A stretch of 37,251 nt of DNA. Origin: Propionivibrio sp. (GTDB lineage Bacteria > Pseudomonadota > Gammaproteobacteria > Burkholderiales > Rhodocyclaceae). Positions 13,081-37,186 of the stretch are shown piece by piece. The notes under the pieces were generated by a model. That model saw only the letters and a program-made list of their open reading frames with translations, did not search any database and was not told the DNA's origin. The position numbers were made by a program, and so were the translations under genes. The first letter of the stretch is position 1. Each line of letters begins with the position of its first letter. The stretch is taken from positions 1-37,251 of the forward strand of contig NZ_JAPUVO010000133.1 in assembly GCF_029255185.1 (NCBI RefSeq), given 5' to 3'.

Positions 13081-13096
13081 AAGGCGGTTAACAAAA

Positions 13097-14142: not shown

Positions 14143-14163
14143 GCGAGAGCGTGCCAAAACTAC

Positions 14164-14177: not shown

Positions 14178-14182
14178 TTTTT

Positions 14183-14198
14183 TGGCGTTTCAAAACGC
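14183..14198. repeat. Short perfect inverted repeat upstream of the ubiU operator
   Basis: GGCGTTT-CA-AAACGCC forms a compact palindrome between the ubiJ stop and the FNR-type site. The T-run lies on the wrong side for termination on either strand, so it may be an additional protein-binding site or a weak structural boundary. Confidence 0.4.
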
Positions 14199-14243
14199 CT
14201 TAAGTGAGGGTCGAAAAGCCGATACCGCTTGTCTTTCTGGCGA

Positions 14244-14813: not shown

Positions 14814-14820
14814 CGCACGC

Positions 14821-15678
14821 TCAACTGAGCTGCTGGATTCCGGCAATCACCCAACCCTTGCCGCCCTCGGTCGGCTTGGAGAGGTTCCAGACCTCATCGA
14901 AGGGCGCTGCGGCGGCACCGGCTACCTCACGAATCATGCCGCTAAAGTGCACGCTGGCAACGTGGCGGTTGGCTTCGGTCGTTACCTCGAGCAGTTCTGC
15001 ATTCAGGGTCACGACGTCGGTCTGTTGCGGGGCGTTACCGCGTTCGTCCATTTGCATCTTGATCTCGGCGAACATTTCCGGGGCAACGAATTCACGAATG
15101 TCGTCCATGTTTTTGGCGTCGTTGGCCGCCTGCAAGCGAACAAAATTAAGCTTGGCGATACGCAGAAAACCTTCACTGTCAAAACCTTCGGGAACGTGTG
15201 CCGCCAACGGAGAGACAGTCGCAGTCGCAGCAGCTGAGCCAAACTGTGGCGCGGCAACCGGTGGCGGCAGACCGGCACCGCCGGCGCCAGCGTACTGCAT
15301 TGCGCTGTCAGACGGCGCGGCCGTCTTGCGACCGAACAGCCATTTCAAGACGAAAACCGCTGCCATCGCTAGCAGGGCGATCATCAGGATATTGCTCATG
15401 CCTTCGCCCATTCCGAAATGCGAGAGCAGCGCGGCAATGCCAAGACCGGCAGCAAGACCGGCCAGCGGACCCATCCAGTTACGCTTGGGAGCCGCTGCGG
15501 GCGCACCGACCGGCGCCGTCGGCGTAGCTTGCTGGGCAGGCGCCGCGGGCCTTGGCGCGACCGACTGACGCTGCATGCCCAAGGATTTTCCGCCACCCAG
15601 GCGCGCCGCTTCGGCCTCGCCAACCGAGAGGCCGAGGGCCAGGATAACCGTACAAAAAGCCATTAGTATTTTTTTCAT
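14821..15678 (-). CDS. Tim44-like domain membrane protein
   Basis: The 285-residue protein begins with a secretion signal (MKKILMAFCTVILALGLSVGEAEA). A Pro/Ala-rich stretch with LGGGKSLGMQRQ follows, then two hydrophobic segments (about 72-90 and 94-114), another linker, and a C-terminal Tim44-like domain (about 165-285: EGFLRIAKLNFVRLQAANDAKNMDDIREFVAPEMFAEIK). The Tim44 fold is a lipid- or protein-binding domain. Bacterial members are exported membrane proteins of uncertain role. It lies between ubiE (11 bases upstream, with GGAG before its ATG) and ubiJ (eight bases downstream). The tight spacing suggests a membrane or lipid connection to ubiquinone synthesis, though that is inference. Confidence 0.88.
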   Translation of the reverse strand: MKKILMAFCTVILALGLSVGEAEAARLGGGKSLGMQRQSVAPRPAAPAQQATPTAPVGAPAAAPKRNWMGPLAGLAAGLGIAALLSHFGMGEGMSNILMIALLAMAAVFVLKWLFGRKTAAPSDSAMQYAGAGGAGLPPPVAAPQFGSAAATATVSPLAAHVPEGFDSEGFLRIAKLNFVRLQAANDAKNMDDIREFVAPEMFAEIKMQMDERGNAPQQTDVVTLNAELLEVTTEANRHVASVHFSGMIREVAGAAAAPFDEVWNLSKPTEGGKGWVIAGIQQLS

Positions 15679-15689
15679 TTGTATCTCCG

Positions 15690-16430
15690 TCAGAATTTAA
15701 AACCACGATGCAGGGCAACAACCCCTAACGACAGGTTGAAGTAGTCAACTTTCTCAAGACCGGCTTGTTCCATCATTCCTTTCAGTGCTTCCTGGTTCGG
15801 GTGAACGCGAATCGACTCGGCTAAATAGCGATAACTCGACTCATCCTGGGTGATAATCTCACCGATTCGCGGGATGACTTTGAACGAGTAGAAATCATAA
15901 ATCGGCGCCAGCGGTTTCCAAACCTGCGAGAATTCCAGCACCAGCAGTCTGCCACCGGGACGCAGCACGCGCCGCATTTCGGCCAGCGCCGCGTCCTTGT
16001 GCGTCATGTTGCGCAGCCCGAAAGCAACGCTGACGCAATCAAAATAGTCATCCGGAAACGGCAGCTTCTCAGCATCACACTGCGCGACCGGGAGCAGGAA
16101 TCCCTTGTCGCAGAGGCGATCACGGCCATTGGCCAGCATCGCGTTGTTGATGTCGGTCAGCCAGACTTCGCCATTTTTTCCCACCTTGCGTGAAAAAGCC
16201 AGCGCCAGATCACCGGTGCCGCCAGCCACGTCAAGCACGCGCGAACCCTCACGAACGCCGCTTCTGGCAATCGTGAATGACTTCCACAAACGGTGCATGC
16301 CGACCGACATGACGTCGTTCATCAGGTCGTATTTCTGAGCCACGGAATCGAAAACATCGGCAACGCGGCGCGCCTTTTCAGCTTCGGCAACCTGTTCGAA
16401 ACCAAAATGAGTCTGAGTCTGTTTGTTCAT
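15690..16430 (-). CDS. ubiE: Demethylmenaquinone/2-methoxy-6-polyprenyl-1,4-benzoquinol methyltransferase UbiE
   Basis: UbiE performs the SAM-dependent C-methylation in ubiquinone (and, where present, menaquinone) synthesis. The protein has about 246 residues. Family features are THFGFEQV at the N-terminus, [28 protein letters not shown] motif [14 protein letters not shown] (near residues 65-77), [21 protein letters not shown], and [17 protein letters not shown]. The end ALHRGFKF matches the family's typical close. Two ATGs are possible (16430 and 16439), neither with a good ribosome site, and I chose the one nearest the conserved start. It lies 33 bases after the DUF971 gene. The operon also feeds SAH to AhcY. 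Confidence 0.96.
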
Positions 16431-16463
16431 ACGGTGCATTAGCTGGGGTCAATCAGAGAAAAA

Positions 16464-17749: not shown

Positions 17750-19135
17750 ATGAGGCATGAAGCGGTGAGCACAATCTGGGTGCGCACCTTATGGCTGCTG
17801 TTGGCCATGACCGGCCTGGTCTTTGCCCCGCTGGCGCTGGGTTTTGGGCTCGATTGGGGGCTGGCGGGAGTCATCGTTTTTCTGCTGCTCATGCTGTGCT
17901 GGCAGCTACTTCATCTTCGCCAATTGACGGCTTGGCTGGAGGGCCCGATTGACGCCCCCCTGCCGCGCGGACGCGGCGCCTGGGAAATTGCCTTCGCCGG
18001 CATGCATCGCCGGACCCGCATACGTCTGGGGCAACAGCAGAACCTTGCAGAAACCCTGGAGCGCTTCATGCGTGCCTTCCAGGCGCTGCCGGACGGCGTC
18101 ATCGCCTTCGATCGCCATCACCATATCCGTTGGATCAACGAACAGGCAGAAACACACTTCGCCCTGTCGGCGGCCAGCGACTGCGGACAGGCGCTGACCA
18201 ACCTGATTCGCCATCCGGATTTCGTCAGCTATCTTGACTCCGGACGCTACGCCGAACCTCTGATTTATCGGGGTGGTCGCGTTGAGGGACTGACCCTGAT
18301 GTTACAGATCATTCCTTATGCTGAAGACCAGAATCTTCTGGTCTCGCGTGATATCAGTCAGATCGAGCGCATTGAGACCATGCGCCGTGACTTCATAGCC
18401 AACGTTTCTCATGAGTTAAAGACACCGTTGACGGTAGTCGCCGGATTCTCCGAGATGCTTGCTGACGACCACGAGACTTATAGCACTTCAGAGGTCAAGC
18501 ACTATCTGGCGCTCATTTGCGAGCAGAACGCGCGCATGCAGCGTCTGATCGAGGATCTGCTGACCCTCTCGGCACTGGAGTCCGGAAGCGCATCAACGAG
18601 TGAAGAAGCGGTACCACTGACGCCCATGCTGCACAGCATTCTGGCCGACGCCCAGGCGCTTTCGGCAGGTCAGCACGAAATTGTTCTGACGATCGAAGCG
18701 CCATCGGTGCTGTTGTGCTGTGCCAACGAGCTACGCAGTGCGTTCAGCAATCTGGCGGGAAATGCCGTTCGCTACACGCCGCCAGGCGGCAGGATAACCC
18801 TCCACTGGCGGCTGCACAAAGGCGGTGGGGAGTTTATCGTAACCGACACCGGCATCGGTATCGGCGCCCAACATCTGCCACGTCTGACCGAGCGTTTTTA
18901 CCGGGTTGATCGAAGTCGTTCGCGTGAAACCGGGGGTACCGGCCTGGGCTTGGCTATCGTTAAGCACGTACTGACGCGCCATCATGCCACACTGGAGATC
19001 GAGAGCGAGTTGGGCAAAGGCAGTCGCTTCATTGCGCGCTTTCCGGCTCGCTGTCTTGCCGGCGAGCGTACAGACTTAACAGACCGCGAAACTGACGCGT
19101 TCGAAATCCGGACCGTCGTCAAGCACATGCAGTAG
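17750..19135 (+). CDS. phoR: Phosphate regulon sensor histidine kinase PhoR
   Basis: PhoR phosphorylates PhoB when phosphate is limiting. The 461-residue protein has two adjacent N-terminal membrane helices (about 10-29 and 33-53) with almost no periplasmic loop, as in PhoR. A linker and a PAS-like domain follow (about 105-200: FMRAFQALPDGVIAFDRHHHIRWINEQAE). The dimerisation domain has the phospho-acceptor His221 in FIANVSHELKTPLTVV. The ATPase domain runs to about 440 (NLAGNAVRYTPPGG, DTGIGIGAQHLPRLTERFYRVD, GGTGLGLAIVKHV). A tail of about 20 residues (TDLTDRETDAFEIRTVVKHMQ) extends past the kinase fold. Those codons overlap the 3' end of the convergent unknown gene by 60 bases. Confidence 0.95.
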   Translation: MRHEAVSTIWVRTLWLLLAMTGLVFAPLALGFGLDWGLAGVIVFLLLMLCWQLLHLRQLTAWLEGPIDAPLPRGRGAWEIAFAGMHRRTRIRLGQQQNLAETLERFMRAFQALPDGVIAFDRHHHIRWINEQAETHFALSAASDCGQALTNLIRHPDFVSYLDSGRYAEPLIYRGGRVEGLTLMLQIIPYAEDQNLLVSRDISQIERIETMRRDFIANVSHELKTPLTVVAGFSEMLADDHETYSTSEVKHYLALICEQNARMQRLIEDLLTLSALESGSASTSEEAVPLTPMLHSILADAQALSAGQHEIVLTIEAPSVLLCCANELRSAFSNLAGNAVRYTPPGGRITLHWRLHKGGGEFIVTDTGIGIGAQHLPRLTERFYRVDRSRSRETGGTGLGLAIVKHVLTRHHATLEIESELGKGSRFIARFPARCLAGERTDLTDRETDAFEIRTVVKHMQ

Positions 19136-20677
19136 CCTGACCCGCCAGTTGCCGTCGGTAAAAATTTCGATCACCCGGCCGTATTTGAACCAGCCTGGAG
19201 GGATGACCAGCGATTGTTCAGCATCCACCGAGGCAACGGCCGACAATAGAAATGCGCGCTGGAATTTTCCGGTGCTCTCCCCCGTTGCTTCGATCGGCCG
19301 CGCTGCGGTGGCGACCGGCATACCGGGCAGAGCACGGATTCCCGCCACCAGGCCGCCGCTCTTCTCCTGCACCAGCCAGCTCGCTTGCGCCAGCAGGAAG
19401 CGCTCGCCGTCATGCGGGCAGAGCGCGAGAAGTTGACCGTGAGCCATTTTCTTGCCCGAAGAACTGCGCACGAGACGGAAGCCATTGGCCGACTGGTTGA
19501 CGACTTCCCACGTATCAACGCCGTAGGCCAGCTGCTTCTGCGGGATCTGCACAACCTGCCGGGGATCTTCATCGTGGCGGAAGGCGAGCAGGCTTTCAAA
19601 TTCCCGTGTGGAATAAATGCGGACGTTCTCTGGCTGCTCGAACTCCTTGCCCGAGATGAAATAGTGCATGTCCTCAAAACCGGTGCATAACTCAATACTT
19701 CCGGAAGTATCGTGACGCCGGAACTTTCGCGGTGCGCGCGCCTGCGACCACGGGTGGGAAAGATGTTCGAGCAGGCGCTTGCATTGACCGGTCGTGCAAT
19801 CCTCGCCCAGCCCGAGTTGGGCTGGCGGAATTTTCTGGCTTAACTGTTCCCTCGTCTGGCTGACTTTCAGGGCCAGCTGGGAGGTGTCCAAACGCCGCAG
19901 ATGGTCGGTAGTGATGGGGCGCAAGGCGACGTCCTGCATCAGATCAACAAAGTATTGGGGCGACGAATCCTCCATGTCTACTCGGTGCAGGCTGACCAGA
20001 GGTGACCACGCTATGGCCCAGCGTCGAACCAGTGTCTGCTGCCGAACCGAGAGGCTGTAATAGCCGGCCATGTCGCACAGAAGAAAGCTGATGTAGGACG
20101 CCGTGCAGTGCGTGCTGCCTCCGGTCGATTGGAGTACGTCTGGAATGGTCAAGGTAGCCACTCCCCACTCTTCAGCGCTGCCGTAGTAGCCATGCAGGTC
20201 AAGCCACAAGCCCCACGGATATCCGCGCCGCGCCCGCTGGTGCTCGATGATGGCCAGGCCGGTGTGATGGATGCAGCGGTGCAGGATCGTAGCGACCCGT
20301 TTGGTATAGGTAGCGTCCTCTCGCTCCGGCGCATCATGCTCGGCGCAATGGGCATAGGCCCGTGCCGTTTTCAGCCAAAGGGCGACAATGTTCTGGAAAA
20401 TTTTCTCTTCGACATCAGCCAGCGGAAGTGCCTTGTTCTGGTAACGCTTGGCCAGTTCTTCCGCGACGTAGGCAATAGGGAGGCGAACTTGTTCAAGCAG
20501 CCGGAAATAAGTTTCCCCATCCGGAGGCATGGCCAGAAGGCTATCAAGAAACCGGTTAAGATCGACTTCGGCCTGTAAGGCATTGCTCAACGGAAGACGT
20601 GAAATAATCTCGTAACCGGTTTTCAGGTCACGGATGGCAAAGGTGATCGGTGCAGAGGCATTCATGGCGGCTTGCAT
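19076..20677 (-). CDS. Unrecognised 533-residue protein, convergent with and overlapping phoR
   Basis: I do not recognise this protein with confidence. It has no signal peptide or membrane helix and looks cytoplasmic. The N-terminal two thirds are helical, rich in Leu, His and Arg (for example VATILHRCIHHTGLAIIEHQ and LWLDLHGYYGSAEEWG). The last 150 residues switch to short beta-type segments (WEVVNQSANGFRLV, MAHGQLLALCPHDGERFLLAQASWLVQ, GIRALPGMPVATAARPIE). These faintly recall a PilZ-like barrel, but the Arg and DxSxxG ligand motifs of PilZ are not evident. Cys residues are numerous. AGGGGTGG precedes the ATG at 20677. Its stop lies 60 bases inside the phoR coding region on the other strand, so the two transcripts overlap. 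Codon use matches the neighbours. Confidence 0.8.
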   Translation of the reverse strand: MQAAMNASAPITFAIRDLKTGYEIISRLPLSNALQAEVDLNRFLDSLLAMPPDGETYFRLLEQVRLPIAYVAEELAKRYQNKALPLADVEEKIFQNIVALWLKTARAYAHCAEHDAPEREDATYTKRVATILHRCIHHTGLAIIEHQRARRGYPWGLWLDLHGYYGSAEEWGVATLTIPDVLQSTGGSTHCTASYISFLLCDMAGYYSLSVRQQTLVRRWAIAWSPLVSLHRVDMEDSSPQYFVDLMQDVALRPITTDHLRRLDTSQLALKVSQTREQLSQKIPPAQLGLGEDCTTGQCKRLLEHLSHPWSQARAPRKFRRHDTSGSIELCTGFEDMHYFISGKEFEQPENVRIYSTREFESLLAFRHDEDPRQVVQIPQKQLAYGVDTWEVVNQSANGFRLVRSSSGKKMAHGQLLALCPHDGERFLLAQASWLVQEKSGGLVAGIRALPGMPVATAARPIEATGESTGKFQRAFLLSAVASVDAEQSLVIPPGWFKYGRVIEIFTDGNWRVRLLHVLDDGPDFERVSFAVC

Positions 20678-25247: not shown

Positions 25248-26210
25248 TCAACCCGAACTTTGCCAGACCCCATTCTCCAGCGGCGTGACGGTCACCGCGA
25301 CGTCGAGCTCGTGCGCGTCGCCGCCGAGGATGACGCCGCGCAAGGGTGAAACGTCGCCGAAATCACGGCCCCAGGCCAAAGTGATGTGTTGCGTGTCGGG
25401 CAGCAGGTTGTTGGTCGGGTCGAAGTCGACCCAGCCACCCCCTTCGGCGCTTGGGCAATACACCGAAATCCAGGCGTGCGAGGCATCAGCGCCAACCAGG
25501 CGCGGCTGACCAGGCGGCGGGTGCGTCAGCAGATAGCCACTGACATAACGTGCGGCCAGGCCAAGCGAACGCAGGCAGGCCAGCATCAGGTGCGCGAAGT
25601 CCTGACAAACACCGTGCTTGTCCTCCAGAATCTTAAGTACCGGCGTGGCGACCGTCGTTGCCGCCGGGTCGAACTCGAATTCGTCATGGATACGGCGCAT
25701 CAGATCCTGGACGGCGCAAAGCAGTGGGCGCAACGGTGTAAAGCTGGGTCTGGCGTAGGCCGAGAACTCACGCTTGACGCGCACGTAGGGTGATTCAAAC
25801 AAAAAGCGGTTGGCTTCAAGCCGTACCGGGGCGGCGCCGTAGGCGAGCATGCTGCTGACCTCTTCCCAGGACGGCGAAGCGGCGAGCCAGTCTGACTGAA
25901 AACCGGTTTCGGCCTGGCCATCCAGCCCCATCGGCAGGTGCGGCCGGACTTCGATGGTGCTTTCGGCGCATACGGTGAGACGGCTGTGCGGCGCTTCGAT
26001 ATCGAATTGCCTGACTGGATTGCCGAAGCAGTCAGGACGCGAGCGGGAGTGGGTGGGTTCGGGATCGATGCTGATCTGGTGCGCAAGGCAGCTTTGCCAC
26101 GGACAATCGCGCGGTGTCAGGTGCAGATGCTGGCGTGAGAGCGAGACCGGGCTTTCGTAGCTGTAGGTCGTTTCGTGAACCACATGGTAGCGGGCGGCAA
26201 TCAAATTCAT
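25248..26210 (-). CDS. Transglutaminase-like protein A
   Basis: The 320-residue protein has an N-terminal Bact_transglu_N domain (YHVVHETTYSYESPVSLSRQHLHLTPRD) and a papain-fold transglutaminase core. The triad is intact: Cys202 in GVCQDFAH, His245 in SHAWI, Asp264 in DFDPTN. Members may cut or join peptide bonds, and the substrate is unknown. No signal peptide is present, so it should be cytoplasmic. It starts seven bases after the ATP-grasp/alpha-E gene and ends the minus-strand operon. It is the most divergent of the three local transglutaminases, lacking the GSCRD motif seen in the other two. The ATG at 26210 has no strong ribosome site, suggesting coupling to the upstream gene. Confidence 0.93.
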   Translation of the reverse strand: MNLIAARYHVVHETTYSYESPVSLSRQHLHLTPRDCPWQSCLAHQISIDPEPTHSRSRPDCFGNPVRQFDIEAPHSRLTVCAESTIEVRPHLPMGLDGQAETGFQSDWLAASPSWEEVSSMLAYGAAPVRLEANRFLFESPYVRVKREFSAYARPSFTPLRPLLCAVQDLMRRIHDEFEFDPAATTVATPVLKILEDKHGVCQDFAHLMLACLRSLGLAARYVSGYLLTHPPPGQPRLVGADASHAWISVYCPSAEGGGWVDFDPTNNLLPDTQHITLAWGRDFGDVSPLRGVILGGDAHELDVAVTVTPLENGVWQSSG

Positions 26211-26217
26211 GGGCCAA

Positions 26218-28764
26218 TTACGCCGTCAGAGTCTGCCGGCCGACATCGCCGATATGGGTGAAATAGCGCATCGCCAGACGGTCCGAAAGCGTCGCTGAGG
26301 CGAGAGAAATTCCGTTGAGCGCGTTGGCCAGTTCGAGACAGGGATCGCAGTTGCGGCACTGGCTAAAATCAAGTCCTTCCAGGAGGCCCAGGTCAAAGGA
26401 CTGCAAGCGGGCAAGGGCGGGACGCAGCACGTCATCCTGCGTGTCGTCAAGCGCTCTAGTCAGACGCGTGAGATAGCGGATCAGGTTCTGCAACTGAAAA
26501 ATAACGGCATGCGGATTGGCGTCGTCGAAAACGATCAGGTCGATCGCCGGCAGCAACTCGGGCTGAGCCATATAACGCGAACGGTAGGTAATGATGCTGT
26601 CGGTCAGTTCGAGCAGCCATTCGATGCTGCCGGCTGCGCGCGTCGAGTCAAGACGCAGAAACTGACTGATGGCATCGGACAGGAAAATCAGACGTTCAAG
26701 GCGGCGGCCGATGATCAGAAAGCGCCAGCCATCGTCGCGCGTCATGTTGTCCATGGCAAATCCAGCCAGCGACGATGAAGCCAGCAGCATTTGATCGAGG
26801 AAGGCGAGTGCGTCGCTGATCTCGGGCCGTACCTTACTATAGCGCTGCAACTGAAGTTGCAAGCGGTTCAGGGCGTGCCAGTTGTCGAGCGAGAAGCGCT
26901 CGCGCACCTGGGTGCCGACCCACAGCAGGCGACGGATGTTGCCGGCGATGCTGTCTTCCCACTCGCTATCGCAGATGGCGTCAAGCAACAGCGCTTCGAG
27001 TTCGGAACGCTGCTCGGCGCTGCTCGCTTCAATCGCTTTGACGCCCGCTTTGCTATCGGCCTCGGGCAAGAGTTTGAGCGAACGGCACAGGTCGAGCGCT
27101 GAAATCAGCGCCGGGATGGCGTCAGCACCGGCGTCGACCAGCCGTGACAATCCGACGCGCAGGATCCGCGCCGCATCGTCGCAGCGTTCGGCGTAACGGC
27201 CGAACCAGTAGAGGTTTTCAACGACCCGCGAGGATAGATTGCTGCCACTACGGATCAGGTCGGTTTTGCCGACCAGCTTTTTAAGGAGGCTGAAGGTGCT
27301 GACCGCCTGCTCGCTAAGGACCCAGGTGTCCTTGCTCGATCCGCCGCGCTGCATCGAAATATAGCGCGCATTGGTCGCCGCCGTGACGCGTGTCAGCCCG
27401 CCCGGCATCACCACGTAGCCCGCTGGCGTCGCGGCGACATAAACGCGCAGGGCAACGCCACGCGGCAGCAGTCGACGGTCATGTTTCGTGCTCCACGCCG
27501 GGGCCTGCGAAAAATCAACGAGCTCTTGCGCGACATAGGCCTGCGGGCGGGCGCGCAGGCGGGCGATCAATTCTTCGCGCGACGCCCCCACCAGTTCGCT
27601 GCCAAAAATCGGGTCCATGCGCTGCGAGGGGAAGGATCCCTTGATAACCAGTTGGTCGAGATTTTCGATGGCAAACTCAAGCGCCGCCGGTTCGCCACAC
27701 CACCAGGTGCCGACCGACGGCATAGCCAGCGTTTCACCGAGTAGTTTTTCGCAAGCGCCGGGCAGGAAACCCGGCAGCGCCGCCGATTCGAGTAGTCCGC
27801 TGCCGAGCGCGTTGGCGACCAGCACCTTGCCGGCGCGCACGGCCTGCAACAGGCCGGGAACGCCGAGTGCCGAATCGCCGCGCAGTTCAAGCGGGTCGCA
27901 GTAATCGTCGTCAAGCCGGCGCAGGATCGCATGCACGCGGCGCAGTCCGGTCAGTGTTCTGAGATAGACGCAATCGCCGCGCACCGTCAAATCCTGGCCT
28001 TCGACCAGCGGATAACCGAGATAACGCGCCAGATAGGCGTGTTCGAAATAGGTTTCGTTGTACGGTCCCGGCGTCAGCAAGACGATCAGCGGCGGCTCGT
28101 TCTCATGCGGCGCCAGGTGCGCCAGGTTGTCTTGCAGTGCACGAAAGAAGTCGGCCAGATGCTGCACGCCCAGATCGCGGAACTGCTCAGGGAATACGCG
28201 CGAAACAATGATCCGGTTTTCCAGCGCGTACCCCGCGCCCGACGGCGCCTGGGTGCGGTCGGCAATCACCCACCAGCGGCCGTCTGGCGAGCGCGCCAGG
28301 TCGGCGGCATAAAGGTGCAGCCAGCTATCGCCGGGTGGGGTGATGCCCTGGCAGGGCCAGAGAAACCCATTGTGACCATAGACCAGCGCTGGCGGCAGGG
28401 TGCCATCCTTGATCAGCGTCTGCGCGCCATAGAGATCGCCAAGCACGGCGTTGAGCAGGCGCGCACGCTGCGTGATGGCGCTGGAAATCTCATGCCATTC
28501 GCCAGCAGACAGGATCAGCGGCAGCGGATCAAGTTCCCATGGCCGGTCGGTTCCTTCGGGGTCGGCGTAGACGTTGTAGGTGACGCCGTTTTCCAGAATG
28601 CGCTGGCGCACGTAACTGAGCCGGTGGCGCATCTGCTCCGGCGTTGCCGCGTTGAGGTGGTCAAAAAAAGACTGCCACGACGGGCGTACTTCACCGTTCG
28701 CTGCGATCATCTCGTCGAAACGATCGGTCTTTCTCTGATACATCGAAAGCAGGCTACGCGGCAT
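26218..28764 (-). CDS. Circularly permuted ATP-grasp (type 2) fused to an alpha-E domain
   Basis: The 848-residue protein joins two parts that are separate genes in many bacteria. Residues 1 to about 500 are a circularly permuted ATP-grasp (CP_ATPgrasp_2), with WELDPLPLILSAGEW, GAGYALENRIIVSRVFPE, RRLDDDYCDPLELRGDSALGVPGLL, and LVIKGSFPSQRMDP. These are carboxylate-amine ligases by fold, so ATP-driven amide bond formation is the expected chemistry. Residues from about 510 to 840 form the helical alpha-E (DUF403) domain, starting LSSRVVENLYWFGRYAERCDD. CRNCDPC lies near the end. It stands between the 1102-residue amidoligase gene and transglutaminase A. The ATG at 28764 lacks an obvious ribosome site, and an internal Met at 28743 is an alternative. 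The substrate is unknown. Confidence 0.93.
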   Translation of the reverse strand: MPRSLLSMYQRKTDRFDEMIAANGEVRPSWQSFFDHLNAATPEQMRHRLSYVRQRILENGVTYNVYADPEGTDRPWELDPLPLILSAGEWHEISSAITQRARLLNAVLGDLYGAQTLIKDGTLPPALVYGHNGFLWPCQGITPPGDSWLHLYAADLARSPDGRWWVIADRTQAPSGAGYALENRIIVSRVFPEQFRDLGVQHLADFFRALQDNLAHLAPHENEPPLIVLLTPGPYNETYFEHAYLARYLGYPLVEGQDLTVRGDCVYLRTLTGLRRVHAILRRLDDDYCDPLELRGDSALGVPGLLQAVRAGKVLVANALGSGLLESAALPGFLPGACEKLLGETLAMPSVGTWWCGEPAALEFAIENLDQLVIKGSFPSQRMDPIFGSELVGASREELIARLRARPQAYVAQELVDFSQAPAWSTKHDRRLLPRGVALRVYVAATPAGYVVMPGGLTRVTAATNARYISMQRGGSSKDTWVLSEQAVSTFSLLKKLVGKTDLIRSGSNLSSRVVENLYWFGRYAERCDDAARILRVGLSRLVDAGADAIPALISALDLCRSLKLLPEADSKAGVKAIEASSAEQRSELEALLLDAICDSEWEDSIAGNIRRLLWVGTQVRERFSLDNWHALNRLQLQLQRYSKVRPEISDALAFLDQMLLASSSLAGFAMDNMTRDDGWRFLIIGRRLERLIFLSDAISQFLRLDSTRAAGSIEWLLELTDSIITYRSRYMAQPELLPAIDLIVFDDANPHAVIFQLQNLIRYLTRLTRALDDTQDDVLRPALARLQSFDLGLLEGLDFSQCRNCDPCLELANALNGISLASATLSDRLAMRYFTHIGDVGRQTLTA

Positions 28765-28816
28765 CGGGCAAGGGGTGCTGGGTACTAGTAGGTCGAAGGC
28801 CGTTGAAAAAGATTCC

Positions 28817-28914
28817 CCACCAAGTCACCAAGACACCAAGGTGCACAAAGATTTGAATTTCTTGGTGCGCTCTGCACTTCCTTCGGTCGTCTTTGTGTCT
28901 TGGTGACTTGGTGG
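28817..28914. repeat. 98-bp inverted-repeat element of ACCAAG units
   Basis: CCACCAAGTCACCAAGACAC (28817-28836) and its exact reverse complement (28895-28914) form a perfect 20-bp inverted repeat around a 58-base centre. Each arm is itself made of (A)CCAAG-type units at 7-9 base steps. It fills the gap between the DUF2126 gene and the ATP-grasp gene. It is organised like the GCAGAG element at 12975 but has a different unit. No open frame lies inside. Confidence 0.9.
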
Positions 28915-28941
28915 TTCGCAATTTTTCCCAGCGCGCAAGTT

Positions 28942-31900
28942 TCAAAATTGCCGCAAGTCTAGCGTAAACGGGAAGTTGGCGTTGCGTGGCGAGAGCGGGA
29001 TATTGATCGTCCCCGGACTATGTCCCAAGGCGGTGAAGCGCGCCAGACGACGGCCTTCGGCCTCGTTGGCATTGACCGGATAGCGTTCGGGGTTGCGTCC
29101 GCCGGGATGTTCAACGTGGTACTGGCAACCACCCAGCGAGCGTTTCATCCAGGTGTCGACGAGATCGAAGACGAGTGGTGCATGGATGCCAATGGTCGGG
29201 TGCAGCGCCGACTCCGGCAGCCAGGCCCGGTAACGCACGCCGGCGACGAATTCGCCAACCTTGCCGGTCGGCTGCAGCGGCACGGCCTTGCCATTGCAGG
29301 TCAGGACATAACGGTCGCCGGCCATGCCGTTCACTTTGACCTGCACGCGCTCGCACGAGGCATCGACATAGCGCACAGTGCCGCCGACCGAGCCCTCTTC
29401 GCCCATCACGTGCCAGGGTTCAAGGGCGTGACGCAGCTCAAAGGAGATGCCCTGAGCCACAAAACCGCCGTGCACCGGGAAGCGGAATTCGAAATGCGGT
29501 GCAAACCAGTCACTCTCAAGAGCGTAACCGGCCGCGCGCAGTTCGTCGATGACGTCGTCAAAATCCTGCTTGACGAAGTGCGGCAGCATGAAGCGATCGT
29601 GCAGTTCGGTGCCCCAGCGCATCAGCCGCTCGGGTGCATAGGGTTGCTTCCAGAAACGGGCGATCAGTGCCCGCAGCAGCAGTTGCTGGGCCAGCGACAT
29701 GCGCGCGTGCGGCGGCATCTCGAAGGCGCGCATTTCGAGTAGACCCAGTCGGCCACTCGGGCCATCAGGCGAGTAGAGCTTGTCAATGCAGAACTCGGCA
29801 CGGTGCGTATTGCCGGTGGCGTCGATCAGCAGGTTGCGCAGCAGGCGATCGATCAGCCACGGGGCCACCTCTTCGTCCGCTTGCGGAAACTGGCTAAAAG
29901 CGATTTCCAGCTCATAGACCGAATCGTTGCGCGCCTCATCAACGCGCGGCGCCTGGCTGGTCGGGCCGATAAACAGACCGGAGAAGAGGTAGGACAGCGA
30001 CGGATGGTTATGCCAGTAGCTGATCAGACTGCGCAGTAGGTCAGGGCGGCGCAGGAAAGGCGAATCGAGCGCCGTCAGCGCGCCGAAAACGAAGTGATTG
30101 CCGCCACCGGTGCCGGTATGGCGACCGTCGAGCATGAACTTCTCGGAGGTCAGGCGTGACAGGTGCGCCACCTCGTAGAGATGCGTCGTGCGCTCGACCA
30201 GCTCATCCCAACTGGCGCAGGGCTGAATGTTGACTTCGATGACGCCGGGGTCGGGGGTGACGCGGAAGTTGGTCAGGCGCGGGTCGGACGGAGGCTCGTA
30301 GCCTTCGAGCAGGACCGGCGTGGCCAGGGCTTTGGCGGTGGCCTCGACGGCGGCGACGAGTTCGAGATAGTCGTCCAGACGATCGGTCGGCGGCATGAAG
30401 ATGTAGAGCAGGCCATTGCGCGCCTGAGCTGAAATCGCCGTGCGCGTGACCTCTGCCGCCGACTCATGTTTCTTCGGCGGGTGATCGGCGGTCGGCGCGG
30501 CTGGCTCGGCAGTGGGCAAGTCGGAGCTTTCGGCATGCTGCTCTTGAAGGTCAGCATGGGCCGGTAGCGCTTCGAAGTTTTGTGTCGGGTCGGGTGCGTG
30601 GGTGTAGGGGTAATCGCTCTTGGCCACCCAGGGCTGCGAATCGAGCGGCAGACGGTAACCGACCGGCGAATCGCCGGGCACCAGAAAACAACGTTCGCCG
30701 CGCAGGAACCACGGGCTGGTTTGCCAGCGCTTCGCCAGCTTTGGATGGCGCATCACCGGCAGGACGTAGCCGATGACTTTATCCAGTCCCTGGCCGAAAA
30801 TCGCCGCCAGACGGGCGCGTTCGAGCGGATCGTCGAGGCGCGCATCGTGTGGGTCGACGTTGATTGGCAAGCGGTGTTCGCGCCACAAATAATAGAAGGC
30901 ATCCTCGTAGGCCGGAAAGACGTATTTCCTGTCAAGGCCAAGACGCTCAGCCAGACTGTACAGAAAGCGCCCCGCCAACGCCGCATCAGCGCCATAGCTC
31001 TGCTTTTCGTTGGCGCACAGCGCCGGGTCGCTCCACACCGGCTGCCCGTCGCGCCGCCAGAAACAGTTGAGCGACCAGCGCGGCAATTGCTCGCCGGGAT
31101 ACCACTTGCCCTGACCGAAGTGCACGAGGCCCTGCGGCGCGTATTTCTCGCGCAAGCGATGGAAAACTTCAGCGGCGAGGATGCGCTTGGTCGGCCCCAT
31201 GGCCTCGGTGCTCCATTCGGCGCCGTCCGGGTCGTCGATCGAAACGAAAGTCGGCTCTCCGCCCATGGTCAGACGCACGTCACCGCGCTTCAGATCGGCG
31301 TCGATGCGATGGCCGAGCGTTTCAATCAGCGACCATTGCTCCTCGCTATAGGGTTTGGTGACGCGCGGCGCTTCCCAGACCCGCTCGATACTCATGCTGT
31401 GCCCGAACTCGCATTCGCACTTTGAGGTAAAACCGCTAATTGGTGAGGCCGAAGACGGCTGCGGCGAACAGGCCACCGGGATATGCCCTTCGCCAGCGAA
31501 CAAGCCGGAGGTCGGATCGAGGCCGACCCAGCCGGCGCCGGGCAGATAAACTTCGCACCAGGCGTGCAGGTCGGTAAAGTCAACGTCGGTGCCGGACGGT
31601 CCGTCGAGCGACTTGATGTCCGGCACCAACTGGATCAGATAACCCGACACAAAGCGTGCGGCCAAACCGAGATGGCGCAGCACCTGGACCAGCAGCCAGG
31701 CCGAGTCGCGGCACGAGCCACTGCCCAGGGTCAGGGTCTCCTCCGGACTTTGCACGCCGGGTTCGAGACGGATGACGTAACCGACGACATGTTGCACACG
31801 CTGGTTGATATCGACCAGGAAATCGACGCTGGGCATCGGCTTTCTCGGGATCGTGGCAATAAATTCGCCCACTTTCGGGGTCAATGGCAGGGTATGCAGA

Positions 31901-32250
31901 TAAGGTAGCAACTCATTGCGCTGCTCGGCCTCGTACTTGAACGGAAACTTCTCGGCGTAAGGCTCAGGAAAGAAATCGAAGGGATTGATCACCGACATCT
32001 CGGCGACCAGATCGACTTCAACCCGAAATTCGCGCGTTTTCTCCGGGAAGACCAGCCGCGCCAAGTAGTTGCCCTGCGGATCCTGCTGCCAGTTGATAAA
32101 GTGTTCGGCCGGCGTAACCTTTAGCGAATAGCTAAGGATTGGCGTGCGCGAGTGCGGCGCCGGACGCAGGCGCACGACCTGCGGCGAGAGAGCGACCAGG
32201 CGATCGTAGCGATAATGGGTAACGTGATTGAGGGCAACTTGAATTGACAC
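28942..32250 (-). CDS. Transglutaminase fused to DUF2126 predicted amidoligase
   Basis: The 1102-residue protein has two catalytic parts. Residues 1 to about 290 form a transglutaminase with its own N-terminal domain and triad Cys180 (GSGSCRDSAW), His229 (LHAW) and Asp245 (GLDPTSG). Residues about 310-1102 are DUF2126, a predicted amidoligase of the glutamate-cysteine-ligase fold. It has RLTMGGEPTFVS (near 325-336), TGTGGGNHFVFG (near 710), NTHRAEFCIDKLY (near 808) and GLLEMRAFEMPPH (near 835). A Glu/Ala/Pro-rich linker of about 50 residues (about 555-605) interrupts the second part. The start is GTG at 32250, with GGAG six bases before it. It is first in a minus-strand run with the ATP-grasp/alpha-E and transglutaminase A genes, and divergent from transglutaminase C. 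Coupled ligase and transpeptidase/protease activity is inferred. Confidence 0.94.
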   Translation of the reverse strand: MSIQVALNHVTHYRYDRLVALSPQVVRLRPAPHSRTPILSYSLKVTPAEHFINWQQDPQGNYLARLVFPEKTREFRVEVDLVAEMSVINPFDFFPEPYAEKFPFKYEAEQRNELLPYLHTLPLTPKVGEFIATIPRKPMPSVDFLVDINQRVQHVVGYVIRLEPGVQSPEETLTLGSGSCRDSAWLLVQVLRHLGLAARFVSGYLIQLVPDIKSLDGPSGTDVDFTDLHAWCEVYLPGAGWVGLDPTSGLFAGEGHIPVACSPQPSSASPISGFTSKCECEFGHSMSIERVWEAPRVTKPYSEEQWSLIETLGHRIDADLKRGDVRLTMGGEPTFVSIDDPDGAEWSTEAMGPTKRILAAEVFHRLREKYAPQGLVHFGQGKWYPGEQLPRWSLNCFWRRDGQPVWSDPALCANEKQSYGADAALAGRFLYSLAERLGLDRKYVFPAYEDAFYYLWREHRLPINVDPHDARLDDPLERARLAAIFGQGLDKVIGYVLPVMRHPKLAKRWQTSPWFLRGERCFLVPGDSPVGYRLPLDSQPWVAKSDYPYTHAPDPTQNFEALPAHADLQEQHAESSDLPTAEPAAPTADHPPKKHESAAEVTRTAISAQARNGLLYIFMPPTDRLDDYLELVAAVEATAKALATPVLLEGYEPPSDPRLTNFRVTPDPGVIEVNIQPCASWDELVERTTHLYEVAHLSRLTSEKFMLDGRHTGTGGGNHFVFGALTALDSPFLRRPDLLRSLISYWHNHPSLSYLFSGLFIGPTSQAPRVDEARNDSVYELEIAFSQFPQADEEVAPWLIDRLLRNLLIDATGNTHRAEFCIDKLYSPDGPSGRLGLLEMRAFEMPPHARMSLAQQLLLRALIARFWKQPYAPERLMRWGTELHDRFMLPHFVKQDFDDVIDELRAAGYALESDWFAPHFEFRFPVHGGFVAQGISFELRHALEPWHVMGEEGSVGGTVRYVDASCERVQVKVNGMAGDRYVLTCNGKAVPLQPTGKVGEFVAGVRYRAWLPESALHPTIGIHAPLVFDLVDTWMKRSLGGCQYHVEHPGGRNPERYPVNANEAEGRRLARFTALGHSPGTINIPLSPRNANFPFTLDLRQF

Positions 32251-32384
32251 AGCAGGCTCCAGTGCAAAGGGCCTGGCCAGCCGTTGGCAAAAGACGCGCC
32301 TTGTCCCTTGTCCGGCCAGCCAGAGTGTTGAAGGCGCAATGATACAAAAGATTGGCGGCTTTCAGTCAGCTTAGTAATAGGCCT

Positions 32385-32390
32385 TATACT
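32385..32390 (+). promoter_or_regulatory. -10 box for transglutaminase C
   Basis: TATACT lies 36 bases before the ATG at 32427. TTCAGT at 32361-32366 is a weak -35 at 18-base spacing. It sits in the 176-base divergent gap between transglutaminase C and the DUF2126 gene, which is where control of the whole cluster would be expected. Confidence 0.35.
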
Positions 32391-32426
32391 CCAAGGCTAC
32401 TGGCAATTAGGAATGGTGGATCAAAC

Positions 32427-33290
32427 ATGCGACGTCTTAACATCTCTCACGTGACCGAATACCGGTTCCCGGCTGCGGTATCCCTGCTACCGCATCGCCT
32501 GCGCCTGCGTCCTCTTGAAAGCCACAGCCTGAGAATCGAAGCCTCGACGCTCGACATCGCTCCGGCGCACGCCATCCGCTGGTATCGGGATGCGCTCGGC
32601 AATTCGGTAGCGATGGTCAGTTTCAGCGAACCGTCCACCTCCTTGCACGTGCTTAGCGAGGTAGACATCGCAGTTTATGACGATGCCCCGCTCGATTTTT
32701 TGATGGAGGATTACGCGGTTAACTGCCCCTTCGCCTACGCCGTCGGCGAGCAGCCCGATCTCGCGCCTTTCGAGCAAAGCGTCTATGTCGATGACCGTCC
32801 GGCGCTGCACGACTGGCTCGATGGCCTCGGTCTGCTACAGCGTCCGATCGAGACTTTCACCCTGCTCTCACAATTAAACTGCGAAATCGCCAACACGTTC
32901 ACCTATCAGATCCGCGAGGAGGAGGGCGTTCAATCCCCCGCCCAGACACTGCGCCTGAACAGCGGTTCATGCCGCGACTTTGCCGCATTATTCATGGAGG
33001 CTTGCCGTTATATGGGACTGGCCAGCCGTTTTGTCAGCGGCTACCTGCACATGCCCGATAACGAAACCGGCAATGCCACGACTCACGCCTGGTCCGAGGT
33101 CTATCTGCCTGGCCCGGGCTGGAAGGGCTTCGATCCGACCAGCGGCCTGATCACCGGCAACCAGCATATCCCGGTTGCCGTGGCGCGCCACCCTGAAACA
33201 GTACCCCCGGTTTCCGGCAGCTTCGTCGGTCCGGCCGGACAGCGTCCGGCGCTGACCGTATCCGTTCGCGTTAGCGAGCTCGGGGGTTGA
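32427..33290 (+). CDS. Transglutaminase-like protein C
   Basis: The 287-residue protein starts MRRLNISHVTEYRFPAAVSLLPHRLRLRP, a Bact_transglu_N domain. The transglutaminase core follows, with intact triad Cys182 (NSGSCRDFAALF), His220 (THAW) and Asp236 (GFDPTSG). It closes with HIPVAVARHPETVPPVSGSF. This core closely resembles the one in the DUF2126 fusion (shared GSCRD, SRFVSGY or ARFVSGY, EVYLPGxGW, DPTSGL). Both differ from protein A, so B and C are probably closer relatives. The ATG at 32427 is preferred to an open extension from 32352 because the domain starts there. It has no signal peptide. It is transcribed away from the other cluster members and toward the M16 protease gene. Confidence 0.93.
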   Translation: MRRLNISHVTEYRFPAAVSLLPHRLRLRPLESHSLRIEASTLDIAPAHAIRWYRDALGNSVAMVSFSEPSTSLHVLSEVDIAVYDDAPLDFLMEDYAVNCPFAYAVGEQPDLAPFEQSVYVDDRPALHDWLDGLGLLQRPIETFTLLSQLNCEIANTFTYQIREEEGVQSPAQTLRLNSGSCRDFAALFMEACRYMGLASRFVSGYLHMPDNETGNATTHAWSEVYLPGPGWKGFDPTSGLITGNQHIPVAVARHPETVPPVSGSFVGPAGQRPALTVSVRVSELGG

Positions 33291-33305
33291 GCACGAGCCA
33301 TGGTC

Positions 33306-33325
33306 ACCCCGGCGAACGCCGGGGT
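33306..33325. repeat. REP-like GC-rich palindrome
   Basis: ACCCCGGCG-AA-CGCCGGGGT is a perfect nine-base stem with a two-base centre, embedded in GGTCACCCCGGCG...GGGGTCTAG. That context resembles the widespread REP-type palindromes of proteobacteria. It lies 15 bases after the transglutaminase C stop, followed by a T-rich but broken stretch, so it may also attenuate readthrough into the protease gene. Confidence 0.65.
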
Positions 33326-33391
33326 CTAGTTCGTTTGTCTGATAATTCACAGCCTCTGAGCCCAACTAATTGCAAGCAAGCCCCCACCACC

Positions 33392-36106
33392 ATGACCCAT
33401 TTTCGTTATGCCCTCGTTTTGCTTGTCGCGATATGCGTTCAATGCCTTCCCTCTGTCGCCCAGCCGGCGGGCCTGGCCCGCCTCGACGCGCACGCCGCCG
33501 GTTTTTCGGCCTATGTCCTGCCGAACGGGTTCAAGATTATCCTCGCGCCATTTCCGTCAGCCGCCAACGCCCGCATCGAGTTGCTTATCAAGACGGGCAG
33601 CAAGCTCGAAGGCTACGGTGAAACAGGCATGGCGCACCTGCTCGAGCACATGCTGTTCAAAAGCGCTGGTAGGCGCGCCGATCTGAAGAGCGACCTCACC
33701 GCTCTCGGTGCAAACTGGAACGGCACCACCAACGCCGACCGCACCAATTTCTTCGAAACCGTTGCCGCCGAGCCCGAAAAAATTGATGAGGCCATTCGCA
33801 TCGAAGCCGATCGCTTCATCCGGGCCAGCTTCACAAAAGAGCATCTGGCGAGCGAGATGAGCGTCGTGCGCAATGAGTTGGAACGTAGTGATAATGACCC
33901 CGGCAGCCTGGTGATGCGCGCCTTGCAGCGTCAGAGCTACTTCTGGCACGGCTATTCGCGACCGACCATCGGTGCGCGCAGCGACATTGAGGACGCCCCC
34001 TTCAGCGCCTTGCAGGCTTTCCACCGAAAACACTATCGCCCCGACAACGCGGCACTGATCGTCTCTGGCAATTTCGACCCGCAGCGAGTCCTGGCGCTGG
34101 CCAGCCGGCTATTTGCGCACGCACGCAATCCGTCAGGCCCAAAAATCAGCAGTTGGACCCGCGAAGAACCACGGGCTACGACTAATCGCAGCGAACTCAT
34201 TCTACCGGCCGGCAAAACCATGGCCGCCAGCGCCTGGAAACTGCCCGGCATGAACGAACGGCAGACCTACGCCTTTGACCTGGGCATCAGCGCCATCTGC
34301 GACGAAGACTGGGGCAGCCTGCGCAAAGACCTGGTTCTGGAACGGCGGATTGCCGTCGCCGTGTCATGTGGAACGCATATGCAGACTGACTACAGCCTGT
34401 TGATCGCGACCGCCACGGCTGGCCAGGAAGCGGACGCCGAGCTCATCTCACGTGCGTTGCGCGAGCACATCGAAAGCGCTGCGGCCGGGGGCGTCAGCCA
34501 GGAGCAACTGGAACGCGCCCGACTAACAGAGCTCAATGCCTACGAACGAATGGAAAATGCACACGAAATGCTCGCCTCGCTCCTGTCGCAAGCCGAAGTC
34601 TCCGGCGACTGGCGCCTGTACTTCTGGCAGCGTGACATGGTCAAGACCGTCGATCGTGACGAAGTCAATGCCGCTCTAAAGAAATGGGCGGTCGGCATCA
34701 ATCGCAGCGACGTCTTGCTACGCCACGGTGAGGGCAACACGGCGCCGGAATTACCGAAATTCGCCGCGGCCACCGCACTGGTCTCGGGCAAGGAGTGGCC
34801 GGCCATCGCCATGCTGGCGGACCCACTACCGAACTCGGCCAGCGACTTGGCCAAAGCCACCATCACCATTCCCCTTGACGGATCACGGGCCAAGGCGGCG
34901 CTGATTTCGCGTCAGACCCAGGGCAGCCTGGCCTGGTTGAACCTCAATAACGACTACGGGAACGAGTCGGCACTGAGCGGCCGGCGGACGGCCTGCGCCA
35001 TCGCTGATCAACTCATGGCCTATGGCGGTGCAGGTCTTGATCGCGACCAGTTAAGCGCCAAACTCGAAGCGCTGCAGGCACAGTGGTCGTTGGGCCTTGG
35101 CGGCATCGTCATTGAAGCGCCGCGCCGGAACATTGAGGCCGCGCTGGACATCCTGCTCGGCGTGTGGGCATCACCAGCACTGCCGCAAAGCGAATTCGAG
35201 CGCCTCAAGGCCGCTGCCATCGCCAAGCTGGAAGCGGGTCTGAAGGATCCGGCGCAGCTTGCCGCCAGCGATGCCGGTCTGCGCTTTGACAATTACCCGC
35301 CCGGGCACCCGCTGCAACCTCGCTCGCTTGAGCAAAAACTGGCGGAATACCGTACCGTGAGTTTCGCGCAGGCGAGCGCCTGCGTCGCCGACTTCTCCGG
35401 ACTGGCGCAGGTTCGCCTGGCCATGGTCGGCGCCTTCTCAGAGCAGGACGTGCAGGCGGTCTGGGCCAAGGTCGCCAAACTGCCGACGGCACGAATTGCC
35501 TACGATCGGGTGCGCGACATTGACGCGCCGCTGGTCGTCGACACCACACCGCTCAAGGTATCGATGCCAGAAAAACCGAATGCCTCAATCGCCGGATCGA
35601 CTCTGCTGCGCATTACTGACGACGCGGCAGATTTTCCGGCCTTGCGCATCGCCGTCAAGGTACTCGGCGGTGATGCCGACAGCCGCATCTGGACCCGACT
35701 GCGCGAGCGCGAGGGACTGGCCTACAGCGCCGGCGCGAGTTTGTCAGGCAACCACTTCGAGCCACGCAGCAAACTGGTAATCCAGGCCAGCGCGGCCAGC
35801 GACAAGGCCGATGCTGCGCTGAGCAGCCTCAAGGAAGAACTGGCGCGGGCGCTCAAAGACGGTTTTTCGGCTACGGAAGTCGAGCGCGCCAAGCGCGCTT
35901 GGCTGCATGAGCGAAAAACCTCGCTGCGTGAGGAGCGCTCCTATGCGTCCAGCCTGGCGCAAGGGATGTATAGCGGGCGTGATTATGCCTGGTTAGCGCA
36001 GTATGACAAAAAGATCGCCACTCTGGACGCGCAGCAGGTGACACACGCCTTGCGCAAGTATCTGGCCGATGCACCCATAGTCTGGGCGATTGGTCGGGGC
36101 CAGTGA
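33392..36106 (+). CDS. Secreted M16 family zinc metalloprotease
   Basis: The 904-residue protein is an insulinase/pitrilysin family peptidase. A signal peptide (MTHFRYALVLLVAICVQCLPSVAQPA) directs it to the periplasm. The N-terminal M16 half holds the inverted zinc motif HLLEH at residues 82-86 and the downstream Glu region SEMSVVRNELERSDNDPG. The C-terminal half is the usual inactive partner, with YSAGASLSG and a late RAKRAWLHE segment. The two halves form a closed chamber that degrades peptides. The ATG at 33392 is chosen because it starts the signal sequence, although the frame is open from 33287. It follows transglutaminase C by 101 bases, with a REP-like palindrome between. A link to peptides made by that cluster is possible but only positional. 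An insertion sequence begins 36 bases after its stop. Confidence 0.93.
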   Translation: MTHFRYALVLLVAICVQCLPSVAQPAGLARLDAHAAGFSAYVLPNGFKIILAPFPSAANARIELLIKTGSKLEGYGETGMAHLLEHMLFKSAGRRADLKSDLTALGANWNGTTNADRTNFFETVAAEPEKIDEAIRIEADRFIRASFTKEHLASEMSVVRNELERSDNDPGSLVMRALQRQSYFWHGYSRPTIGARSDIEDAPFSALQAFHRKHYRPDNAALIVSGNFDPQRVLALASRLFAHARNPSGPKISSWTREEPRATTNRSELILPAGKTMAASAWKLPGMNERQTYAFDLGISAICDEDWGSLRKDLVLERRIAVAVSCGTHMQTDYSLLIATATAGQEADAELISRALREHIESAAAGGVSQEQLERARLTELNAYERMENAHEMLASLLSQAEVSGDWRLYFWQRDMVKTVDRDEVNAALKKWAVGINRSDVLLRHGEGNTAPELPKFAAATALVSGKEWPAIAMLADPLPNSASDLAKATITIPLDGSRAKAALISRQTQGSLAWLNLNNDYGNESALSGRRTACAIADQLMAYGGAGLDRDQLSAKLEALQAQWSLGLGGIVIEAPRRNIEAALDILLGVWASPALPQSEFERLKAAAIAKLEAGLKDPAQLAASDAGLRFDNYPPGHPLQPRSLEQKLAEYRTVSFAQASACVADFSGLAQVRLAMVGAFSEQDVQAVWAKVAKLPTARIAYDRVRDIDAPLVVDTTPLKVSMPEKPNASIAGSTLLRITDDAADFPALRIAVKVLGGDADSRIWTRLREREGLAYSAGASLSGNHFEPRSKLVIQASAASDKADAALSSLKEELARALKDGFSATEVERAKRAWLHERKTSLREERSYASSLAQGMYSGRDYAWLAQYDKKIATLDAQQVTHALRKYLADAPIVWAIGRGQ

Positions 36107-36142: not shown

Positions 36143-36181
36143 GTGCTTATCCGGTTAGCTCCCATGCCTACTACCTGTAGT
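36143..36181 (+). repeat. Left terminal inverted repeat of the insertion sequence
   Basis: The first 14 bases are identical to the right end. The next 25 carry seven differences. The repeat includes the last codons and stop of the transposase gene. Confidence 0.88.
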
Positions 36182-37186
36182 GGGACGTAATTTTTTTGCA
36201 TATAGTTCGGCATAGGTTGGCGCAGTGACGTCGCCAGCAATGCCCAGCAGGGAGCGGAAAGCGTTGAATGGGTAGAAGCGGCGGTTGAAGCGGAACGTGA
36301 ATTCGTTGAGATAGGCTTGCAAGTGTTGCGGGCTGACGCCGTGGTGAATGCCACGTAGCCATGTTTTAAGATTGGAGAACACGAGGTGAATGATGGGCAG
36401 GAAGGTCTCGGCAACTTGCACGTCGCCACGTTCAGCAACGGCAGTATGAAGATATCCCCGTTTTCCAAGAGTCGCGTAGCCGTTCCAGTCATCGGTAACA
36501 ATGGTGGCGCCTGGCGCAACGATGTGCTCGATGAAGCCACCCAACGATTTGGCACTTCGGTCTGGCACTACAGCGAGTCGAACGCGTCCTGCGTACCGTC
36601 CAGTCCTCCGCTTGTTGAGGCTGCCACCGGGCTTGCGTTGTTTAACCTCGACGGCACCGGCGACGAGAACCATGTCGTGAACGCCTCGGCCCTTGCCGCG
36701 AGTACGACCGCCGACGTAGGTTTCATCGGCTTCGACGTGTTCTCCGGGGTTGCCACCAATTTGGTCCTGGTCGGGCCGCACCATGCCGGCCCGCAGTTTG
36801 TGAAGAATTTGGAAAGCCGTCTCGTAGCGCGGCAGTCCGAGTTGCCGTTGGAACTGGACGGCCGACATGCCGGGCGTCTGGCTGGCGACCAAGTAGGCTG
36901 CCCAGAACCATACCGGGAGCGGTGTGTGAGTGCGTTCCATGACCGTGCCAGCAGTGAGGCTCGTGTCCCGTTTGCAATGACGACACCGACAAACGCCGGG
37001 GCGATTGGCGAAGCGATAAGGCTCTCCGGACGAGCCGCATTGCTCACAAACGAACCCGGCGTCCCATCGGGCGCGTTCAAGGTAGGCCGCGCACGCCGCT
37101 TCGTCCGGGAACAGTCGCTGAAACTCGGGAAGCGAGCGGGGAAACGGCAAATCGTCTCGTTCAAGCACGTCGATAACCATGGCCAT
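36155..37186 (-). CDS. IS1595 family transposase (ISXO2-like)
   Basis: The 343-residue protein catalyses transposition of the element. An N-terminal zinc ribbon (CEQCGSSGEPYRFANRPG... CRCRHC, about residues 47-73) recognises DNA. The ISXO2-like catalytic domain carries the acidic residues in EADETYVGG (near 150) and TDDWNGY (near 234). The late EFTFRFNRRFYPFNAF segment (near 290-306) holds the Asn that replaces the third acidic residue in many ISXO2-type enzymes. The gene is full length with no frameshift, so the element may be active. Its TAA lies inside the left inverted repeat, so its last eight residues are encoded by the repeat. The start could be 37186 or the ATG six bases later, and neither has a strong ribosome site. 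Confidence 0.92.
   Translation of the reverse strand: MAMVIDVLERDDLPFPRSLPEFQRLFPDEAACAAYLERARWDAGFVCEQCGSSGEPYRFANRPGVCRCRHCKRDTSLTAGTVMERTHTPLPVWFWAAYLVASQTPGMSAVQFQRQLGLPRYETAFQILHKLRAGMVRPDQDQIGGNPGEHVEADETYVGGRTRGKGRGVHDMVLVAGAVEVKQRKPGGSLNKRRTGRYAGRVRLAVVPDRSAKSLGGFIEHIVAPGATIVTDDWNGYATLGKRGYLHTAVAERGDVQVAETFLPIIHLVFSNLKTWLRGIHHGVSPQHLQAYLNEFTFRFNRRFYPFNAFRSLLGIAGDVTAPTYAELYAKKLRPTTGSRHGS

Follow-up and report, generated by a model that had tools for sequence, protein, structure and literature searches.

A DUF2126-containing form of the ATP-grasp/alpha-E/transglutaminase module in Propionivibrio and its nitrogen-control signatures

What function unites three transglutaminase-fold proteins with two candidate ligases encoded at one locus, and under which condition would such a set be needed? 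The question is raised by four genes on a 37,251-nucleotide stretch of Propionivibrio sp., here called the window, which is one contig of a 3.26 Mb genome assembled in 141 contigs. The families involved are those of the circularly permuted ATP-grasp/alpha-E/transglutaminase (TG) module of Iyer et al. (2009), for which peptide synthesis or modification was predicted, as relayed in the accessible parts of PMC5666114, PMC6376114 and PMC3597751; papers of 2017, in the portions available, still describe what this set of families does as unconfirmed. The cluster is very probably a DUF2126-containing form of that module, with NtrC/sigma-54 control at the level of the genus. The module is of a known kind, and what is new is the link of its DUF2126 form to the nitrogen-starvation regulon in this genus. 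A statement that joins identity, control and nitrogen recycling, weighted to the first of these, is likely as a whole, and the recycling mechanism in particular is a tentative proposal, somewhat short of an even chance.

Three of the genes lie on the minus strand. The leading one (28942..32250) encodes a 1102-residue fusion of Bact_transglu_N and Transglut_core with DUF2126 (1346 bits, residues 277-1100) and has the triad C180/H229/D245. It is accompanied by the circularly permuted ATP-grasp/alpha-E fusion (26218..28764, minus strand; 848 aa; Pfam CP_ATPgrasp_2 at 2.6e-154 and Alpha-E at 3.9e-62) and by TG1, a stand-alone TG-fold protein of 320 aa (25248..26210, minus strand; Bact_transglu_N at 7.4e-28 and Transglut_core at 3.9e-21; triad C202/H245/D264). 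Across a divergent gap of 176 bases (32251..32426), the plus strand encodes TG4, another stand-alone TG-fold protein with Bact_transglu_N and Transglut_core, at 32427..33290 or, as a longer frame opening with TTG, from 32352. Coordinates and Pfam domains agree with the initial annotation, which described three intact TG-fold proteins, one of them joined to DUF2126, near an ATP-grasp/alpha-E fusion. The two minus-strand triads are exact as it gave them; C182/H220/D236 in TG4 holds exactly only when numbering starts at the ATG at 32427 and becomes C207/H245/D261 when it starts at the TTG at 32352 (the Asp placed by the FDPT string), and the gap of 176 bases depends on the same start. The count of five domains was too low: beside ATP-grasp, alpha-E and DUF2126 there are three TG domains, every one with an N-terminal region of its own. 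As had been proposed, no signal peptide was seen in the four N-termini, which were read by eye. A profile search of the genome returned three Bact_transglu_N matches, all in the window; a second ATP-grasp and alpha-E pair, unfused and without an adjoining TG, is located on contig 108.

The arrangement recurs in other genomes. DUF2126 is present in 23 of 40 relatives (own genome counted) and in 56 of 281 class genomes, 93 of which have CP_ATPgrasp_2. A survey of co-occurrence, recommended when the locus was first read, shows that all 56 DUF2126 genomes also have the ATP-grasp (Fisher 2e-34, a value that ignores relatedness). The one-strand order TG-DUF2126, ATP-grasp/alpha-E and TG1, with TG1 as gene three, is found in 16 of 19 relatives' loci and in 18 of 40 class loci, the latter being the 40 best-scoring DUF2126 loci with the own locus left out. 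It is also present in 52 of 80 named loci, which were located through TG1; these 52 are every named locus with TG-DUF2126 in the stretch. An ATP-grasp gene lies within the stretch in 35 class loci and in 18 relatives' loci. It is fused as in the window in 15 of the former, where 4 more long frames lack an alpha-E match, and in 16 of the latter, with none more. As gene order and co-occurrence both recur, the genes belong together: the conserved neighbourhood on which the initial annotation had made its reading depend exists in relatives.

Clustering of the neighbours of 62 loci, with clusters retained when present in at least 5, returned the module genes, antisense shadow frames and a few further groups, whose names were mostly assigned by eye: an unnamed protein in 9 loci, ABC ATPases in 7, a DEAD helicase in 6, and a PP2C phosphatase and an adenosyltransferase-like protein in 5 each. 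The unnamed protein has about 416 residues (for example L096:2966-4216 and L097:1822-3078, where L numbers denote loci), and its L096 copy gave no Pfam or NCBIfam match. In L097 it and a separate ATP-grasp gene diverge from a spacer that holds an NtrC-like box.

The module of Iyer et al. (2009), as far as the three papers cited above relay it, shares domain families and neighbourhood logic with the window, which has CP_ATPgrasp and alpha-E together, adjacent TGs with intact Cys-His-Asp and a conserved neighbourhood; the window form differs in being doubly fused (TG-DUF2126 and ATP-grasp-alpha-E) and in having an extra divergent TG. The set I35_5080-83 of Burkholderia cenocepacia H111 likewise comprises DUF404/407, DUF403, a TG protein and a large TG protein, according to the available text of PMC5491218, and we infer that the large one contains DUF2126. 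There, however, ATP-grasp and alpha-E are separate and expression depends on NtrC and sigma-54, whereas the window species has them fused and lacks an NtrC-like box. The Anbu operon (PP_2685-2688 of Pseudomonas putida; also Y. bercovieri) has ATP-grasp, alpha-E and transglutaminase in common with the window but, in the accessible published descriptions, consists of four genes without DUF2126, and the window set is without an Anbu match. Anbu lies within the fetched stretch in 14 of the 40 class loci, 5 of the 19 relatives' loci and 10 of the 80 named loci, the label having been compared with PDB Anbu chains for one protein, from Azospira; the two sets share a stretch in Aromatoleum, Azoarcus, Azospira and Rudaea. 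Searches of the window, of the Propionivibrio loci that were fetched and of the 20 kb surrounding the unfused pair on contig 108 (L003) gave no Anbu match.

How far can ligase chemistry be read from these proteins? Over residues 10-484 the ATP-grasp half matches PDB 3n6x at 6.9e-87, the single solved relative found, which carries the annotation of a putative glutathionylspermidine synthase. At E < 0.1, the profile of the whole fusion returned from the PDB, besides 3n6x, only two designed proteins, over the alpha-E part. An alignment of 31 sequences of the fusion, from which L049 was excluded, shows invariant residues, and a homologue of the ATP-grasp protein from Y. bercovieri releases phosphate from ATP, as stated in the accessible part of PMC6376114. 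DUF2126 is a putative ligase, a designation that follows the 'putative' label of its Pfam entry. Its alignment comprised 44 sequences, with fragments L022-L031 and L013, L014 and L074 excluded. Comparison with glutamine synthetase profiles by hhalign gave a probability below 1%, no similarity being detected with these shallow profiles, and probabilities were likewise below 1% against the ATP-grasp/alpha-E fusion and the TG proteins. The PDB yielded only two chance-level matches (E 0.06), and a Pfam search relaxed to E 10 gave DUF2126 itself as the sole family. A likeness in motif order between DUF2126 and glutamine synthetase, noticed by eye, was set aside as non-evidence. Searches for DUF2126 and for the NCBI-style names of the four proteins found no paper in the collection searched. 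In two relatives the DUF2126 frame is split into two overlapping pieces (L048:7527-10860 and L049:7261-10528), through sequence error or decay.

Of 115 TG sequences in the alignment, 110 have C-H-D at the triad columns; two of the remaining five read C-S-D, one has an undetermined residue and two extend past the end of the fetched stretch. TG4 lies divergent at the matching place in five further loci of the same genus. A midpoint-rooted tree was built from 92 of 241 TG sequences, with some genomes present twice under two locus ids. It groups TG4 in a clade with support 0.99 whose sister is formed by the TG domains of DUF2126 fusions (support 0.98); a recent origin of TG4 by duplication of the TG domain of the fusion is not favoured by this topology. 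The TG4 clade includes stand-alone TGs from two further class genomes (identities of 45 and 50%; support 0.96), each divergent to a stand-alone 713-residue relative of DUF2126 (L244:2431-5548 and L246:3035-6154). In this relative the HTGTGGGNH stretch is altered and EVN, HRxE and ExRAF are retained. From the position of TG4-like TGs beside stand-alone DUF2126 relatives it follows that TG4 may once have partnered such a protein. A third stand-alone relative, L245, showed no recognizable TG among the long frames listed for it.

A probable condition of expression is suggested by sequences upstream of the operon. NtrC binds boxes of the form GCAC-N7-GTGC and sigma-54 promoters follow a -24/-12 consensus; these sequences were used for the scans. 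Of 12 readable Propionivibrio loci, 10 have both an NtrC-like box and a sigma-54-like promoter ahead of TG-DUF2126; L040, with its start cut off, was left out of the pair scan and L014 never entered it. Propionivibrio dicarboxylicus DSM 5885 is among the relatives that have the box. The exceptions are the window and L039, which has the promoter without the box before TG-DUF2126 and carries box and promoter as a pair before its separate ATP-grasp gene. The promoter lies at -49 to -75 (mostly -51), and an exact box lies 54-88 bases farther upstream. The distances between the two, 54 (four loci), 56, 66 (three), 77 (two, including L039), 80 and 88 (the second box of L034), step by about one helical turn, a pattern that in related loci is suggestive only. 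Because the loci are related, the genus sites are not independent of one another.

Outside the genus the pair was found in 8 of 47 loci, at 9 of 81 starts versus 1 of 374 control starts (Fisher 1e-6). The control starts are those of mechanical frames of at least 250 codons, some of which are probably not genes, and the single positive one is divergent to the ATP-grasp gene of a module. In 39 of the 47 loci the scan detected no pair, L044 and L045 among them showing it when measured from the frame start; nitrogen control of the module is not universal. Among the named loci the pair precedes 11 of 60 starts. Seven of these are starts of TG-DUF2126 in records of the first set of loci or close to them, one belongs to the separate ATP-grasp gene of a record of the same description, and the other three, L182 (Pseudomonas sagittaria), L210 and L235, clearly fall outside that group. 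A strict search for the signature in the whole genomes of eight relatives, picked because the box had already been seen there, gave 11 matches, of which 8 lie at this operon, 2 at Ammonium_transp starts and 1 at a probable nirB (pyridine-nucleotide oxidoreductase and BFD-like domains). The reversed pattern had no match in 9 genomes. Published expression data point to the same condition in two other genera. In B. cenocepacia, expression of I35_5080-83 requires NtrC and sigma-54 (PMC5491218, available part). In P. putida, PP_2685-2688 are induced by nitrogen limitation and termed likely NtrB/NtrC targets in the accessible portions of PMC7801951, PMC8050072 and PMC3325844; the values given for the Anbu gene PP_2685 in PMC7801951 are uneven (1.12, 4.81 and 1.45).

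The window departs from its genus. No GCAC-N7-GTGC box occurs in the 400 bases upstream of its TG-DUF2126 gene, even with one mismatch allowed, and the divergent gap measures 176 bases versus 238-472 in the five same-genus loci with TG4. In the alignment of these 6 loci, the stretch absent from the window gap is where the five relatives carry the box. What is left is a weakened sigma-54-like promoter, AGGCGCGTCTTTTGC (32287..32301, minus strand), with two mismatches to the -24/-12 consensus; of stretches drawn at random from the window, 6.9% score as high, and the relatives match the consensus better at the corresponding place. The shared control from the gap envisaged in the initial annotation is half right: relatives carry the NtrC-like box and sigma-54-like promoter there, ahead of TG-DUF2126, but the gap of the window is without the box, and a response of the divergent TG4 gene to it would be conjecture. 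The genome itself encodes NtrC and RpoN. A scan confined to the glnA stretch also showed that this gene retains an exact box and, at a distance of 110 bases, wider than the spacing of the signature search, a sigma-54-like site, so that the regulator is apparently used elsewhere. Upstream of the ammonium transporter the fetched stretch shows a sigma-54-like site, 52 bases from its edge, and no exact box. A signature search of the own genome at a spacing of 30-60 gave no match; one match at 36-66, in a frame with a marginal helix-turn-helix match, was taken as chance. The operon has probably moved from nitrogen control to another mode of expression in this species. The loss is seen in one genome, and an assembly error may account for it instead.

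What the module does can be proposed from its families and its control. The ATP-grasp protein, and probably DUF2126 too, would join a carboxyl to an amine using ATP, and the Cys-His-Asp TG-fold enzymes would act in the cytoplasm on amide bonds of this kind, cleaving or transferring them. A role in nitrogen recycling is hinted at by the nitrogen-starvation control sequences of the relatives: the module would serve nitrogen economy when ammonium is short, and build-and-cleave processing of peptides or protein conjugates, with Anbu as peptidase where it is linked, would return amino-acid nitrogen. The economy of using up ATP to form amide bonds when nitrogen is limiting is not self-evident. According to the accessible part of PMC6376114, moreover, Anbu showed no peptidase activity in tests and the operon proteins no specific interaction, and PMC5666114, as far as available, reports unchanged expression under several other conditions. 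A rival proposal, already in print in the portions of PMC6376114 and PMC5666114 available, takes the chemistry to be protein tagging for recycling, akin to pupylation: proteins would receive an amino acid or short peptide from the ligases and lose it again through the TG-fold enzymes, and those that bear the tag would be degraded by Anbu where it is linked. The nitrogen signatures at the operon and the loci shared with Anbu speak for it; the lack of an Anbu match in the fetched Propionivibrio loci and the reported lack of Anbu peptidase activity and of specific interactions speak against it, and we regard it as unlikely. The two ligase chemistries of the initial annotation are predictions from the families, and its peptide-tag pathway is conjecture. 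A bolder version, speculative and rather improbable, has nitrogen starvation switch on a system for marking proteins: with no ubiquitin-like modifier involved, DUF2126 and ATP-grasp would couple amino acids or short peptides to them, the TG-fold enzymes would conjugate or take off the tag, and Anbu, where linked, would degrade the products, the window lineage being uncoupled from NtrC. By analogy, it would have in common with the Pup-proteasome the logic of tagging, then degrading, under nitrogen starvation.

The substrates could instead be small molecules, the ligases making a soluble peptide or a protected amine that the TGs trim; storage, osmotic balance and the breakdown of amines are the purposes considered. 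The label of 3n6x fits such a pathway, and Bact_transglu_N, DUF403, DUF404 and DUF407 associate with urea-metabolism domains in marine metagenomes (PMC3597751, accessible part). No amine-breakdown gene recurred near the set in the neighbour clustering described above, but the remaining genes of a pathway need not sit in the neighbourhood; this explanation is possible and, in our view, somewhat doubtful. It could also be that the nitrogen signature is a quirk of the genus or motif noise and that the module is constitutive housekeeping. Intact genes without a box in the window species and the 39 loci outside the genus in which the scan detected no pair are consistent with this; the rarity of the signature, whose other matches are ammonium transporters and the probable nirB, and the expression data from two other genera make it very unlikely. 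The preferred reading, a DUF2126-containing form of the known module under nitrogen control in the genus, also has a practical consequence: signatures and published expression data together indicate the condition and the organisms to examine, and species with and without the enhancer offer a natural comparison.

Several other features of the window were recorded. An open reading frame of 533 residues at 19076-20677 gave no Pfam match at 0.001. Downstream of TG4, an M16 peptidase (33287-36106) has a longer frame that overlaps the end of TG4 and, when read from the Met at 33392, what looks by eye like a signal peptide; it was rejected as a partner of the module, no match having been found in the fetched loci of relatives. 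An IS1595-type transposase (36155-37186) lies at the contig end. At 12064-16439, two U32 peptidase-family genes, SCP2, a Tim44-like gene and a ubiE/COQ5 methyltransferase stand in a row, of which the U32/SCP2 set resembles one for oxygen-independent ubiquinone synthesis.
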